Source: Ramlibacter sp. PS4R-6 (GTDB taxonomy: Bacteria > Pseudomonadota > Gammaproteobacteria > Burkholderiales > Burkholderiaceae_C). Taken from it: a stretch of DNA of 64,000 nt. How positions within the stretch are numbered: the stretch's first letter is position 1; each line of letters starts with the position of its first letter. Below are positions 1 to 6,077 of the stretch, piece by piece. The stretch covers positions 2,976,001 through 3,040,000 of the forward strand of contig NZ_JBBHKA010000001.1 of NCBI RefSeq assembly GCF_037572775.1, given 5' to 3'. The notes under the pieces were generated by a model. It ran no database searches, was not told the origin of the DNA, and saw only the letters and a list, made by a program, of their open reading frames with translations. The position numbers and the translations under genes are program-made.

Positions 1-1144
1 CGGGCAGGTGCTTCTTGAGCACGGCCACGATCGCCGGCATGTCGATGTCGCCCGGCAGTTTCGTCGGGACGAGGTTCTGCTCGTACTCGGCATGCACGGC
101 TTCGGTCCATGCGGCCCACGGCACGTCGGGCGGCGCCGTCAGCACCTCGAGCGAACGCGCCGCGGCGTTCATCGTGGCGTTGATCGCCAGGTCGGCCTGG
201 TACACGCGGTTCAGCTCCTCCGCGCTCGCGTGGATGTGCACCAGCTTCTGTTTCGGCTTGGGCGGCGTGAGCAGCGTGTAGCCGCTGGTGGTCATCTCGC
301 CCAGGCGCGGGCCGATTGCCAGGATCAGGTCGGCTTCCTTGATGCGCGCCGCGAGCTTCGGGTTGATGCCGATGCCCACGTCGCCCGCGTACAGCGCGTG
401 GTGGTTGTCGAAGGTGTCCTGGAAGCGGAAGGCGTTGCCCACGGGCAGCTTCCAGTTCTCGGCGAAGCGCTGCAGCGCCTGCGCCGACTGCTGCGTCCAG
501 CCGCCGCCGCCCGCGATCACGAAAGGCTGTTTCGCCGCGAGCAGCATCTCGCGCAACTCGCGGATCGCGCCGGGGTCGCTCCACGCTTCGACGGCTTCGA
601 CGCGTCCCACGGGCCGCGAGGCCGTCTGCTGCACCAGCATGTCCTCGGGCAGCACCAGCACCACGGGGCCGGGGCGGCCGTTCATCGCCGTGGCGAAGGC
701 ACGGGCGACGTATTCGGGAATCCGGTTCGGGTCGTCGATGCGCTCGACGCGCTTGGCCATGCCGCCGGTGGACGGGCCGAAGAAGCTGCGGTAGTCGACC
801 TCCTGGAAGGCCTCGCGGTCGCGCTGGTCGCTCGCGACGTCGCCGACGAACAGCACCATCGGCGTCGAATCCTGGAACGCGGTGTGCACGCCGATCGACG
901 CGTTCGTCGCGCCGGGACCGCGCGTGACGAAGCACACGCCGGGCCGTCCCGTGAGCTTGCCCGCGGCTTCCGCCATGTACGCGGCGCCGCCCTCCTGGCG
1001 GTTGATGACGAATTCGATCTTGTCGCGATAGGCGTGGAAGCCGTCGAGCACCGCGAGGAAGCTCTCGCCCGGCACGCCGAAGGCATGCGTCACGCCCTGC
1101 GCCACGAGGCATTCGACGATGAGGTGGCCGGCGATCTGAGTCAT
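1..1144 (-). CDS. ThDP-dependent enzyme, acetolactate synthase-like (3' end cut by window edge)
   Basis: About 381 codons are visible and the C-terminus lies outside the window. The protein opens with the N-terminal ThDP-binding (Pyr) fold of the acetolactate synthase/benzoylformate decarboxylase superfamily. The segment NRQEGGAAYMAEA carries the Glu (about residue 51) that activates the thiazolium ring, followed by FVTRGPGATN. A central Rossmann-like domain starts near residue 190 (FVIAGGGGW). It faces away from a TetR gene and lies opposite a dehydrogenase/aldolase/isomerase operon. By analogy with IolD-type hydrolases it may cleave or decarboxylate a keto-sugar or cyclitol intermediate, but the substrate is unknown. 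A true biosynthetic IlvB is less likely in this setting. Start is the ATG at 1144. Confidence 0.88.
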   Translation of the reverse strand, partial: MTQIAGHLIVECLVAQGVTHAFGVPGESFLAVLDGFHAYRDKIEFVINRQEGGAAYMAEAAGKLTGRPGVCFVTRGPGATNASIGVHTAFQDSTPMVLFVGDVASDQRDREAFQEVDYRSFFGPSTGGMAKRVERIDDPNRIPEYVARAFATAMNGRPGPVVLVLPEDMLVQQTASRPVGRVEAVEAWSDPGAIRELREMLLAAKQPFVIAGGGGWTQQSAQALQRFAENWKLPVGNAFRFQDTFDNHHALYAGDVGIGINPKLAARIKEADLILAIGPRLGEMTTSGYTLLTPPKPKQKLVHIHASAEELNRVYQADLAINATMNAAARSLEVLTAPPDVPWAAWTEAVHAEYEQNLVPTKLPGDIDMPAIVAVLKKHLP

Positions 1145-1172
1145 TGACTTTATTAACCGTGTGGTGAATTAT
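1144..1172 (+). promoter_or_regulatory. Candidate sigma-70 promoter of the TetR gene
   Basis: TTGACT (1144-1149), a 17-nt spacer, then AATTAT (1167-1172). The predicted start of transcription falls at about the ATG at 1179, so the message would be leaderless or nearly so. The operator at 1152-1172 covers the spacer and -10 box, which would give autorepression. Inferred from spacing and sequence only. Confidence 0.45.
1152..1172. promoter_or_regulatory. Operator copy 1 for the adjacent TetR regulator
   Basis: Imperfect inverted repeat with half-sites ATTAACC and GTGAATTAT. It matches the site at 1876-1896 at the same register (ATTxACC, then GTGAATTA). Finding the two copies on either side of the regulator gene, each in a promoter, supports a shared TetR binding site. 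Confidence 0.6.
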
Positions 1173-1178
1173 TGCGCC

Positions 1179-1829
1179 ATGACGAGAGACACCGCCCCCG
1201 TCGCGGAGGAGCGCCAGCGCGATGCCGACCGCTCGCAGCTCACCATCCTAGCAGCGGCCCGGGACGAGTTCGCCGAGTTCGGGCTGGGCGGCGCGCGCAT
1301 GGACCGCATCGCCGAACGCGCCGGCGTGAACAAGCGCCTGATCTACTACTACTTCGAGGACAAGGAGAAGCTGTTCGAGGCCGTGCTGGAGCAGGCCTAC
1401 CTCGACATCCGCGAGGAAGAAAGGCACCTGCACCTGCTGGATCTGGCGCCCACCGACGCCGTGCGCAAGCTGGTGGAATTCACCTGGGACTACTACCTCG
1501 CGCACCCGGAGTTCCTTACGCTGCTGAACAGCGCCAACTTGCACAAGGCGCGCCACCTGGCGGAGTCACGGCGCGCGAAGGAACTCAACTCGCCGCTCAT
1601 CGAGACGCTCGGCCAGATCCTCGAGCGCGGCCGGCGCGAAGGCACGTTCCGCGGCGGCGTCGACCCCGTGCAGCTCTACGTGTCGATCGCCGGGCTGTCG
1701 TACTTCTACCTTTCGAACAGCTACACACTGTCGGCCATCTTCGGCCGCGACCTCCTGTCGACCAAGGCCAAGGCCGAGCGCCTCTCGCACATGGTCGACG
1801 TGACGCTGGGCTACCTGCTGAGGAGCTGA
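1179..1829 (+). CDS. TetR/AcrR family transcriptional regulator
   Basis: A 216-aa one-component repressor. The N-terminal helix-turn-helix is clear: LAAARDEFAEFGLGGARM, then a recognition helix around NKRLIYYYFEDKEKLF. The C-terminal ligand domain resembles TetR_C families with a YLAHPEFLTLL segment. I chose ATG 1179 because the in-frame GTG at 1161 lies inside the operator and -10 region. It sits between the ThDP enzyme and the catabolic operon, and the same palindrome occurs in both flanking intergenic regions. It probably represses both directions and responds to a pathway intermediate; the ligand is unknown. Confidence 0.92.
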   Translation: MTRDTAPVAEERQRDADRSQLTILAAARDEFAEFGLGGARMDRIAERAGVNKRLIYYYFEDKEKLFEAVLEQAYLDIREEERHLHLLDLAPTDAVRKLVEFTWDYYLAHPEFLTLLNSANLHKARHLAESRRAKELNSPLIETLGQILERGRREGTFRGGVDPVQLYVSIAGLSYFYLSNSYTLSAIFGRDLLSTKAKAERLSHMVDVTLGYLLRS

Positions 1830-1849
1830 GCCGCGTTTTCCGCGGGGGC

Positions 1850-1877
1850 TTGCGCCGGCCGTCCTGCGCCCTATAAT
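1850..1877 (+). promoter_or_regulatory. Sigma-70 promoter of the catabolic operon
   Basis: TTGCGC (1850-1855), a 16-nt spacer, then a perfect TATAAT (1872-1877). The operator at 1876-1896 begins at the end of the -10 box, the classic position for repression. The operon downstream starts at 1924. Confidence 0.65.
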
Positions 1878-1896
1878 TCACCAGTTAGTGAATTAA
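1876..1896. promoter_or_regulatory. Operator copy 2 for the TetR regulator
   Basis: Palindrome with half-sites ATTCAC and GTGAAT separated by six bases and followed by TAA. It shares the ATT-x-ACC...GTGAATTA pattern with the site at 1152-1172. It overlaps the -10 end and start region of the operon promoter. Confidence 0.65.
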
Positions 1897-1923: not shown

Positions 1924-2901
1924 ATGCGCCTTTCCCGCCGCGCCGCACTGGCCGCAGCCACCCTTTCGCTCGCCGCACCCCTGGCCGCCTTCGCGCAGGC
2001 CGGCTACCCGAACAAGCCGATCCGTGTCATCGTCCCCTTCGCGGCGGGCAGCACCACGGACATCATTGCGCGCGCGATCACCGACAAGATGAGCCAGAGC
2101 ATGGGCCAGCAGCTCGTGGTCGACAACCGCGGCGGCGCCAGCGGCACCATCGGCCAGGCGGCCGTGGCGCAGGCGCAGCCCGACGGCTACACGATCATGG
2201 TGCACTCGTCGTCGCACACCGTCAGCCCGCACACCTTCGCGAAGCTGCCCTTCGACACCGAGAAGGACTTCGTCGCCATCACGCCGATCTCGACGACGCC
2301 GAACGTGCTGGTGATCTCCCCCGCCAAGAACATCAAGACGCTGCAAGACCTGCTGGCGTACGGCAAGGCGAACCCCGGCAAGCTCAATTTCGCTTCCGCC
2401 GGCCAGGGCAGCGCCACGCACCTGAACGCCGAGAAGTTCAAGCTCGCCGCGAAGATCGACGCGGTGAACGTGCCGTTCAAGGGCTCGGCGGAAGCGGTGA
2501 CCGAGGTCATCTCGGGCCGCGTCGACTATTACTTCTCGCCCATCGCGCCCGTGATCGGCCAGATCCGCAACGGCCAGCTCGTGCCGCTGGCCGTCGGTTC
2601 GCCCAAGCGCGCCGCCGCCCTGCCCAACGTGCCGACCACCGCCGAAGCGGGCGTGCCCGGCTCCGAGTTCAATTTCTGGATCGGCATGTTCGCGCCCGCG
2701 AAGACGCCGAAGGAGATCGTCGACCGCCTGAACGCGGAAGTGATCAAGGCGCTCAACACGCCCGAGGTGAAGGAACGTTTCGCGTCACTGGGCGCCGATG
2801 CGTGGACGCTCAAGCCCGAGCAGTTCGACGCCTACGTCCACGACGAAATCAAGGCCAACGCGGGCCTGGTGAAGGCTGCCGGCCTGGAGGTGCACAAGTA
2901 A
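1924..2901 (+). CDS. Bug/TctC-family tripartite tricarboxylate transporter substrate-binding protein
   Basis: A 325-aa periplasmic binding protein. Residues 1-25 form a signal peptide (RRAALAAATLSLAAPLAAFAQA). The mature part has the family's YPNKPIRVIVPFAAGSTTD start, the VVDNRGGASGTIG loop and the LNFASAGQGSATHL segment. TctC/Bug proteins deliver organic acids or related solutes to a TctAB membrane pair, but no tctA or tctB is present here, as is common for orphan Bug proteins in Burkholderiales. It is first in the operon and its stop shares one base (TAATG) with the next start, so it is cotranscribed with the dehydrogenase. Ligand unknown; probably the substrate of this pathway. Confidence 0.93.
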   Translation: MRLSRRAALAAATLSLAAPLAAFAQAGYPNKPIRVIVPFAAGSTTDIIARAITDKMSQSMGQQLVVDNRGGASGTIGQAAVAQAQPDGYTIMVHSSSHTVSPHTFAKLPFDTEKDFVAITPISTTPNVLVISPAKNIKTLQDLLAYGKANPGKLNFASAGQGSATHLNAEKFKLAAKIDAVNVPFKGSAEAVTEVISGRVDYYFSPIAPVIGQIRNGQLVPLAVGSPKRAAALPNVPTTAEAGVPGSEFNFWIGMFAPAKTPKEIVDRLNAEVIKALNTPEVKERFASLGADAWTLKPEQFDAYVHDEIKANAGLVKAAGLEVHK

Positions 2902-4064
2902 TGGCTACGCAAAGACTCGGCATCGTCATGCACGGCGTCACCGGACGCATGGGCATGAACCAGCACCTGATCCGCTCCATCGTCGCGATCCGCAGGGAAG
3001 GCGGCGTGATGCTTTCCAACGGCGACAAGGTCATGCCCGACCCGATCCTCGTCGGCCGCAACGCCGAAAAGATCGCGGCGCTGGCCAAGGCCAACGGCAT
3101 CGAGCGCTGGACCACGGACCTCGACAAGGCGCTGGCGGACAAGAACGACACGGTGTTCTTCGACGCGGGCACGACGCAGATGCGCCCCACCCTGCTGGCC
3201 AAGGCGATCCGCGCCGGCAAGCACGTGTACTGCGAGAAACCGATCGCCACCAACCTGAACGAGGCGGTGGAGATCGCGCGCCTGGCGCAGGAGTCCGGCC
3301 TGAAGCACGGGGCCGTGCAGGACAAGTTGTTCCTGCCGGGGCTGCGCAAGCTCGACATGCTGCGCCGCGCCGGCTTCTTCGGCCGCATGCTGTCGCTGCG
3401 CCTGGAGTTCGGCTACTGGGTGTTCGAAGGCGACCTGCAGCCGATCCAGCGCCCGAGCTGGAACTACCGCGCCGAGGACGGCGGCGGGATGATCCTGGAC
3501 ATGATGTGCCACTGGCGCTACGTGCTGGACAACATCTTCGGCGAGGTGAAGTCGATCTCGTGCCTGGGCACCACGCACATCCCGCAGCGCTGGGACGAAG
3601 ACGGCAAGCCGTACGCGGCCACGGCGGACGACGCCGCGTACGCAACGGCGGAACTCGTGGGCCACAACGGCGAGCCGATCATTGCGCAGCTGAACATGTC
3701 GTGGGCCACGCGCGTGCGCCGCGACGACCTCGTCACCTTCCACGTCGACGGCACGCACGGCTCCGCCGTCGCGGGCCTGCAGGAATGCCGCGCGCAATCG
3801 CGCGTGACGACGCCGCGGCCCGTGTGGAACCCGGACGTCAAGCAGTCGATGGACTTCTTCGACCAGTGGCAGGAAGTGCCGGACAGCCAGACCTACGACA
3901 ACGGCTTCAAGATCCAGTGGGAGCACTTCATCCGCCACATCGTCGAGGACGCGCCCTACAAGTGGACGCTGCCCGAAGGCGCCAAGGGCGTGCAGCTGGT
4001 GGAAGCCGCGCTGCAAAGCTGGAAGGAGCGGCGCTGGGTGGACGTTCCGAAGCTCGCGATCTGA
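2901..4064 (+). CDS. Gfo/Idh/MocA family oxidoreductase
   Basis: A 387-aa NAD(P)-dependent sugar or cyclitol dehydrogenase. The N-terminal Rossmann domain contains GIVMHGVTGRMG, and YCEKPIATN is the family EKP motif, with the catalytic Lys that contacts nicotinamide and substrate. The C-terminal alpha/beta domain includes GGGMILDMMCHWRY, where the His corresponds to the usual catalytic histidine region. I start it at ATG 2901, overlapping the upstream stop by one base, rather than at an upstream in-frame codon inside the transporter gene. Probable role: oxidation of a hydroxyl on a sugar-like substrate ahead of cleavage by the DUF993 protein. Confidence 0.93.
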   Translation: MATQRLGIVMHGVTGRMGMNQHLIRSIVAIRREGGVMLSNGDKVMPDPILVGRNAEKIAALAKANGIERWTTDLDKALADKNDTVFFDAGTTQMRPTLLAKAIRAGKHVYCEKPIATNLNEAVEIARLAQESGLKHGAVQDKLFLPGLRKLDMLRRAGFFGRMLSLRLEFGYWVFEGDLQPIQRPSWNYRAEDGGGMILDMMCHWRYVLDNIFGEVKSISCLGTTHIPQRWDEDGKPYAATADDAAYATAELVGHNGEPIIAQLNMSWATRVRRDDLVTFHVDGTHGSAVAGLQECRAQSRVTTPRPVWNPDVKQSMDFFDQWQEVPDSQTYDNGFKIQWEHFIRHIVEDAPYKWTLPEGAKGVQLVEAALQSWKERRWVDVPKLAI

Positions 4065-4071
4065 GGGCGCA

Positions 4072-5229
4072 ATGGCACTGACGCTGTACCTGCCCGCGGC
4101 CGCCAACGGCCGGATCGAGAACTACGCACTCTCGGGGACCAAGCCCGTGCGTCCCGCGAAGGGCGTGGCGTTCAACCGCATCGCCTATTCGGCCGCGCAC
4201 GTCGTGGCCGACCCGCGTGCGGCCATCGACCCGTGGCTGCAATGCGCGGTCGACTGGGACACGACGATCAAGTACCGCCAGTACCTGTGGTCGCTGGGCC
4301 TGGGGGTGGCCGAGGCGATGGACACGGCGCAGCGCGGCATGGGCCTGGACTGGCCGACCTCGCTCGAGCTGATCCGCCGCTCGCTCGACGCCGCGCGCGA
4401 CGTGCCGGGCGCGATCGTCGCATCGGGCTGCGGCACCGACCACCTCGCCATCGACGAGGTGAAGTCGGTGGACGACGTCATCCGCGGCTACGAGGAGCAG
4501 ATGGCTGCGATCGAGAAGCTGGGCGGCAAGCTGATCGTGATGGCCAGCCGCGCGCTCGCGAAGGTCGCGAAGTCGCCGGCGGACTACGAGCGCGTGTACG
4601 ACCGCGTGCTGTCGCAGGCGAAGCAGCCCGTCGTGCTGCACTGGCTGGGCGACATGTTCGACCCGGCGCTGGCGGGCTATTGGGGATCGAAGGACGTCGA
4701 TGCGGCGATGAACACCGCGCTCGGCATCATCGAGGCGCACCCAGCCAAGGTCGACGGCATCAAGATCTCCCTGCTGGACAAGGACAAGGAGATCGCCATG
4801 CGCGCGCGCCTGCCGAAGGGCGTGCGCATGTACACCGGCGACGACTTCAACTACGCGGAGCTGATCGAGACCGGCAGCGACGCGCTGCTGGGCATTTTCG
4901 ACGCCATCGCTCCCGCCGCCAGCGCGGCGCTGGGAGAACTCGCGCAGGGCAACACCGCGAGGTTCCACGACATCCTGGGCCCGACGGTGCCCCTGTCGCG
5001 CCACATCTTCCAGGCGCCCACGCGCTTCTACAAGACGGGCGTGGTGTTCATGGCGTGGCTCAATGGCCACCAGTCGCACTTCACCATGGTGGGCGGCCAG
5101 CAGAGCACGCGCTCGCTCGTTCACCTCGCGGAACTGTTCCGCCTGGCCGACCGCGCCAACCTGCTCGAGAAGCCGGACCTCGCGGTGCAGCGCATGAAAT
5201 CGCTCCTCGCGGTGCACGGGGTCGAATGA
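4072..5229 (+). CDS. DUF993 / dihydrodipicolinate synthase-like aldolase family protein
   Basis: A 385-aa protein of the DUF993 family, distantly related to the DapA/N-acetylneuraminate lyase TIM barrels. The segment VDGIKISLLDKDKE resembles the DapA strand that carries the Schiff-base lysine. A role as a retro-aldol lyase or dehydratase is therefore plausible but unproven. It starts 7 nt after the dehydrogenase stop and overlaps the next gene by ATGA, so it is tightly cotranscribed. Its repeated pairing with a Gfo/Idh/MocA dehydrogenase and a sugar-phosphate isomerase-like protein suggests a multistep sugar-acid or cyclitol breakdown route. Confidence 0.88.
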   Translation: MALTLYLPAAANGRIENYALSGTKPVRPAKGVAFNRIAYSAAHVVADPRAAIDPWLQCAVDWDTTIKYRQYLWSLGLGVAEAMDTAQRGMGLDWPTSLELIRRSLDAARDVPGAIVASGCGTDHLAIDEVKSVDDVIRGYEEQMAAIEKLGGKLIVMASRALAKVAKSPADYERVYDRVLSQAKQPVVLHWLGDMFDPALAGYWGSKDVDAAMNTALGIIEAHPAKVDGIKISLLDKDKEIAMRARLPKGVRMYTGDDFNYAELIETGSDALLGIFDAIAPAASAALGELAQGNTARFHDILGPTVPLSRHIFQAPTRFYKTGVVFMAWLNGHQSHFTMVGGQQSTRSLVHLAELFRLADRANLLEKPDLAVQRMKSLLAVHGVE

Positions 5230-6077
5230 GGGATTTTTCGCAAGACCCCCACTGGCTGTCCATCAACACGGCCACGATCCGCAAGAGCGAAGGCAAGGAA
5301 TTGCCCTTGCCGGACATCATCGAAGCCTGCGTCGGGCGCGGCATCCGCGCGATCTCGCCCTGGCGCGACCAGGTGGCGGCGGCGGGCCTTGCGACGATCT
5401 CGAAACTCGTGAAGGCGCATGGCCTGGAGCTCTCGGGGTACTGTCGCGGCGGGATGTTCCCCGCGGGCACGCCCGAAGGGTTGCAGGCCGCACACGACGA
5501 CAACCGGCGCGCGGTCGATGAAGCGCGCGAGCTGAACGCCCGGTGCCTGGTCCTCGTGGTCGGCGGCGGCGGCAAGGACATCGCGCTTGCGCGCACGCAA
5601 GTGCGCGACGGCATCGCGAAACTGCTCGAGCACTCGCGGTCGGTCGGCATGCCGCTCGCGATCGAGCCGCTGCACCCGATGTACGCGGCTGATCGTGCTT
5701 GCGTGAACACGATGGAGCATGCGCTCGACCTCTGCGACGAACTCGACCCGTCGAAGTCAGGGGCCCTCGGCGTCGCGTGCGACGTCTACCACGTGTGGTG
5801 GGACCCGAAGCTGCAAGCGCAGATCGCTCGCGCAGGACGCGAACGCCTGCTTGCGTTCCACGTCTGCGACTGGCTCGTGCCCACGACCGACCTCTTGCTC
5901 GACCGCGGCATGATGGGCGACGGCGTCATCGAAATCCGCCGCATCCGCGGCTGGGTGGAAGATGCGGGCTTCGCCGGCTACAGCGAAGTCGAAATCTTCT
6001 CGGAGAACAACTGGTGGCGGCGCGAGCACGGTGACGTGCTCGACACCTGCATACAGCGGCACCACACTTTCGTGTGA
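5226..6077 (+). CDS. Sugar phosphate isomerase/epimerase (xylose isomerase-like TIM barrel)
   Basis: A 283-aa AP endonuclease 2/xylose isomerase-like TIM barrel (IolE/IolI/Hyi type). Visible metal-site elements are AIEPLHPMY (Glu and His), CDVYHVWWD (Asp and His), FHVCDW and the C-terminal GYSEVEIFSE (Glu). Start is the ATG at 5226, overlapping the DUF993 stop as ATGA. Members isomerise, epimerise or dehydrate keto-sugars and inososes using a divalent metal. It is the last gene of the operon and ends 15 bases before the convergent bactofilin gene. The exact reaction cannot be read from the sequence. Confidence 0.9.
   Translation: MRDFSQDPHWLSINTATIRKSEGKELPLPDIIEACVGRGIRAISPWRDQVAAAGLATISKLVKAHGLELSGYCRGGMFPAGTPEGLQAAHDDNRRAVDEARELNARCLVLVVGGGGKDIALARTQVRDGIAKLLEHSRSVGMPLAIEPLHPMYAADRACVNTMEHALDLCDELDPSKSGALGVACDVYHVWWDPKLQAQIARAGRERLLAFHVCDWLVPTTDLLLDRGMMGDGVIEIRRIRGWVEDAGFAGYSEVEIFSENNWWRREHGDVLDTCIQRHHTFV

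Follow-up and report, generated by a model that had tools for sequence, protein, structure and literature searches.

Paired palindromic sites around a tetR gene of Ramlibacter sp. PS4R-6 as putative operators of a regulon spread over two loci

Genes, promoters and paired sites around tetR

We analyzed a 64-kb stretch of the Ramlibacter sp. PS4R-6 genome (G000:C1:2976001-3040000), referred to as the window, in which a gene for a TetR/AcrR-family regulator lies between a divergent ThDP-dependent enzyme gene and a downstream operon. The features of the locus are listed below in window coordinates. The promoters and operators are predictions, and the held-out loci are the 70 comparison loci described in the next section.

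1..1144, minus strand: 5' part of the divergent ThDP-dependent enzyme gene (ATG at 1144; 561 aa; PRK08199 subfamily), a possible but doubtful target
1144..1172, plus strand: predicted tetR promoter, TTGACT-17-AATTAT, with the two hexamers conserved across 75 distinct loci
1152..1169, no strand: putative operator 1, ATTAACCGTGTGGTGAAT, with a site here in 68 of 70 held-out loci
1179..1829, plus strand: tetR, TetR/AcrR-family regulator (TetR_N and TetR_C_29); orthologues align from this ATG
1850..1877, plus strand: predicted operon promoter, TTGCGC-16-TATAAT, with a -10-like element common in 77 distinct loci
1876..1893, no strand: putative operator 2, ATTCACCAGTTAGTGAAT, with a site here in 67 of 70 held-out loci
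1924..2901, plus strand: Bug/TctC solute-binding protein gene, first of the operon (domain match)
2901..4064, plus strand: Gfo/Idh/MocA oxidoreductase gene (domain match)
4072..5229, plus strand: DUF993 protein gene, of the DHDPS-like aldolase superfamily by weak PDB matches
5226..6077, plus strand: xylose-isomerase-like TIM-barrel gene (domain match)

The ThDP gene runs beyond the window to G000:C1:2975459. The regulator scored 60.8 bits for TetR_N (Pfam gathering score, 24) and 155 bits for TetR_C_29 (gathering score, 26.2), and its nearest named relatives were found in Caenimonas and Ramlibacter. Additionally, by sequence and conservation, putative palindromic operators overlap its own predicted promoter and that of the neighbouring operon, a characteristic of the TetR family. 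The ThDP protein was the one enzyme, among those of the predicted regulon that were scanned, to pass a curated NCBIfam cutoff, which belongs to a broad subfamily. The PDB searches of these enzymes resulted in a weak DHDPS-class match and, for the DUF993 protein, an uncharacterised DUF993 relative, and at strict cutoffs they gave no match for the enolase-like or ThDP proteins. In the literature searched, no paper on DUF993 was found, and nothing relevant was returned for the half-sites of the motif or for a TetR operator of Ramlibacter.

The initial annotation had described twin sites with matching half-sites at 1152-1172 and 1876-1896, the first over the tetR promoter and the second over the end of a perfect TATAAT. 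Both 21-mers are present and agree at 15 of 21 positions. The core of site 1, ATTAACCGTGTGGTGAAT (18 bp, 1152-1169), lies between the divergent ThDP and tetR genes, inside the TTGACT-17-AATTAT of 1144-1172, where it occupies the spacer and the -10 of the predicted tetR promoter; ATTAAC is its one imperfect half. The core of site 2, ATTCACCAGTTAGTGAAT (18 bp, 1876-1893), overlaps the -10 of the operon, sharing the last two bases of the TATAAT at 1872-1877, and widens to the 22-bp palindrome TAATTCAC-CAGTTA-GTGAATTA (1874-1895). The positions of both sites fit repression through blocking of RNA polymerase.

The promoter elements recur together with the sites. Around site 1, TTGAC(T) at positions -7 to -2 and AATTAT at core positions 16-21 were conserved (75 distinct loci), whereas around site 2 a TATAAT/TACAAT-like element at -3 to +3 was common (77 distinct loci). 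Across loci, the tetR ATG usually follows about six bases past the -10 element. In the window (1144-1181), six bases separate the end of the tetR -10 from the ATG, a Shine-Dalgarno sequence is lacking, and this geometry is conserved in orthologues; due to the short distance, a leaderless tetR mRNA is predicted. A GTG at 1161 was rejected as the tetR start, as it lies inside the operator and the orthologues align from the ATG at 1179.

Recurrence of the sites in relatives and in the genome

We searched 200 genomes of the same family and assumed orthology at 60% identity or more; paralogues reached at most 54%, with a gap between the two groups. About 45 tetR orthologues were found, and a position weight matrix was built from the sites around them. 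By our own tally over 45 loci, site 1 was found in 39, site 2 in 34, and both in 31, and 14 loci were without one site or the other. In orthologue neighbourhoods of up to 14.6 kb, the matrix found almost nothing else above 20 bits, with the exceptions of L055, L073, L077, and L078. The site pair was absent from all eight loci of homologues with 54% identity or less.

For the held-out test, we used 70 loci outside the training set, taken from named records of Ramlibacter, Acidovorax, Hydrogenophaga, Limnohabitans, and others. A site was found upstream of tetR in 68 loci, downstream in 67, and at both positions in 66, and no other site exceeded 17 bits in 373 kb. The initial annotation had suggested a motif search in orthologous clusters and held that a palindrome unconserved upstream of orthologues would refute it; the palindrome proved to be conserved.

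Many of the held-out loci come from congeners, and the cases in which a site moves with its gene are for this reason the stronger argument. In one locus (L077), tetR follows the operon, and both sites lie ahead of the first operon gene. In two others (L043 and L045), the tetR start and site 2 are separated by about 1.1 kb, the site being located at the Bug promoter. In genome G022, a Bug gene (74% identical) on a different contig from tetR has two upstream sites (L123). The regulator and its putative targets also occur together: the TetR was carried by 45 genomes and DUF993 by 46, with an overlap of 41 genomes (own tally).

In other families of the order, orthologues with about 60% identity (L207-L215) were mostly without the motif, L209 being an exception, which suggests divergence of the operator between families. 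Simple inverted-repeat ranking of these order-level orthologues left no common palindrome evident. Within the own genome, a TetR paralogue (L091, G000:C1:3280022-3280630; 44% identical) lies near another Bug gene without this operator. A sister TetR group (L085-L090; 46-52% identical) lies beside related epimerase, DHDPS-like, and enolase genes; this operator is missing there, so the group may have its own. The same ranking for the sister TetRs L084-L091 revealed no evident common palindrome.

At the genome scale, DTTMACNNNNNNGTKAAH occurs at 6 places, whereas the reversed-pattern control gave 0. With a matrix from whose training the genus was left out, four of these matches scored 23-30 bits; the remaining two, at 1412001 (8.2 bits) and 2327937 (17.2 bits), were discounted as probably due to chance. 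Allowing two mismatches gave 478 matches against 219 for the reversed control, which was too noisy. With this pattern-only scan of the genome, weaker sites may have escaped. In 20 same-family genomes without the regulator, pattern matches stayed at background level, with 3 of 24 above 20 bits and a maximum of 24.5 bits. Site 1, at 23.2 bits, falls within the range of these chance sites, so its conserved position counts for more than its score.

A second locus and the proposed regulation

Two further strong sites of the own genome, at G000:C1:451336 (26.7 bits) and 453520 (30.1 bits), lie 2.5 Mb away from tetR. They precede an NAD-epimerase/DHDPS-like pair and a Bug-TctB-TctA-TIM-barrel-enolase-superfamily operon. 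At the second of them, a TTGACA-18-TAAAGT promoter was read by eye, with the operator just downstream.

L121:7336-14879 (G000:C1:451336-458879): second cluster, with two putative operators and genes for epimerase, DHDPS-like, Bug, TctB, TctA, TIM-barrel, and enolase-superfamily proteins

No tetR gene was found beside this cluster. In a congener (G097), these genes have two sites in matching positions, scoring 26.5 and 30.3 bits. Elsewhere, the second-locus genes adjoin tetR: the Bug-TctB-TctA-TIM-enolase module lies between tetR and the Gfo gene in L040, L048, and others, the complete gene set follows the tetR orthologue in L082, and a single cluster holds most genes of both loci in L069. This arrangement in relatives argues that the predicted regulon is one gene set, split in the own genome. 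It is larger than the three units of the initial annotation, which missed the second putatively regulated locus.

Very probably, the sites are operators of the TetR-family repressor encoded between them, which would regulate itself, the operon, and the second locus. Strong comparative support for a single regulator that controls both its own gene and the downstream operon comes from the site pairs (66 of 70), the co-occurrence of regulator and targets, and the operators travelling with their targets. We infer that the local TetR is the binder, that it represses, and that it has an inducer. Without inducer, one or more TetR dimers would bind TAATTCAC-N6-GTGAATTA-like palindromes. Bound at site 1, TetR would repress its own gene by occluding the spacer and -10 of the tetR promoter; at site 2, it would occlude the -10 of the Bug-Gfo/MocA-DUF993-TIM-barrel operon together with the start region. 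At the second locus, the two bound sites would cover the start regions of the epimerase/DHDPS-like pair and of the Bug-TctB-TctA-TIM-barrel-enolase operon. A pathway substrate or intermediate would then release TetR and turn on the genes for taking up and degrading a compound similar to a carboxylate or sugar acid, a substrate class that we guessed from the TctABC-type uptake and the enolase-superfamily, DHDPS-like, and Gfo/MocA enzymes.

Chance likeness between two AT-rich promoter stretches can be dismissed with near certainty. The arms do overlap -10-like sequence, which somewhat raises their similarity; however, exact ATTMAC-N6-GTKAAT matched only sites 1 and 2 in the 64-kb window and nothing in 6.4 Mb of first-order Markov shuffles of it, none of 20,000 local shuffles had the 18-bp consensus in both intergenic stretches at once, and the conservation of the pair in 66 of 70 held-out loci refutes this explanation. 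It is also very improbable that a different regulator, such as a TetR paralogue encoded elsewhere, binds the sites while the local TetR merely lies in between. The genome has other TetR proteins, one of them 44% identical, whereas genomes without this orthologue group showed background sites only, and loci of homologues with 54% identity or less were without the pair. Some TetR-family proteins activate, and an activator, or a protein that both activates and represses, would be compatible with evidence from position; such a role is nevertheless highly unlikely here, given that the sites overlap the -10 and start region instead of lying upstream of the -35.

The initial annotation had one repressor controlling three units, of which tetR and the operon stand on the site pairs, co-occurrence, and travelling operators, whereas the ThDP gene became uncertain. 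That this gene is controlled together with the other two, its enzyme being a dedicated part of the pathway, is a tentative and somewhat doubtful reading. Site 1 lies within the 34 bp that separate the two start codons in the own genome, and the ThDP gap is below 60 bp in 39 of 80 named loci. On the other hand, 16 of 20 same-family genomes without the regulator have a homologue, no ThDP gene lies within 3 kb of tetR in 36 of the 80 named loci, some of which are short contigs, six copies located elsewhere in TetR-bearing genomes have no operator, and the site stays beside tetR in loci with a longer gap. In several of these longer-gap loci, a GATAAT-like element, possibly the ThDP -10, was seen by eye well away from the site. 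We read the ThDP-tetR adjacency as lineage-specific; an effect of the operator on the ThDP gene is plausible in the own genome, where most of this gap of 34 bp is taken up by site 1.

A whole nutrient-use pathway that is as yet uncharacterised is probably under the control of this one repressor of ordinary appearance. We consider it fairly likely that the palindrome marks a previously undescribed TetR regulon defining an uncharacterised catabolic pathway of Comamonadaceae and close relatives, whose genes scatter to distant loci while the operator is kept. The pathway would comprise DUF993, Gfo/MocA, DHDPS-like, epimerase, enolase-superfamily, and TIM-barrel enzymes and tripartite uptake. The mechanism is ordinary, and the operator serves to mark scattered genes of unknown function as parts of one pathway. 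Through it, the DUF993 protein is connected with a transporter and several further enzyme families, and a handle for finding the substrate is gained.

Comparison with known systems

The closest solved sequence was PDB 3npi, a TetR family regulatory protein, which matched over almost the full length (E 2.8e-25) but is distant (92.8 bits). The best NCBIfam matches were to RutR, the pyrimidine utilisation regulator, also of the TetR family. They covered mostly the N-terminal half and stayed below the curated cutoffs, with 54 bits for NF011584 (cutoff, 230) and 53 bits for TIGR03613 (cutoff, 368), and the target genes are different.

In Rhodobacter sphaeroides, AcuR is a TetR-family repressor of acuR-acuI-dddL, and its operator, TAATAGAC-N6-GTCTATTA, overlaps the promoter of its own leaderless gene acuR (PMC3017554). 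The system described here resembles it in the 8-bp arms with a 6-bp spacer, the overlap with the own promoter, and the leaderless regulator gene (predicted here). The outer TAAT and inner AC/GT are common to TAATAGAC-N6-GTCTATTA and TAATTCAC-N6-GTGAATTA; however, each operator arm differs by two bases, reading TAATTCAC and GTGAATTA here and departing from the AcuR operator. Moreover, this TetR scored 26.3 bits against the curated AcuR cutoff of 247 (NF051457), the target genes are others, and several operators are found here at separate promoters and loci. The best reading is that the regulator is architecturally like AcuR and, judged from these sequence comparisons, not a member of the AcuR family.
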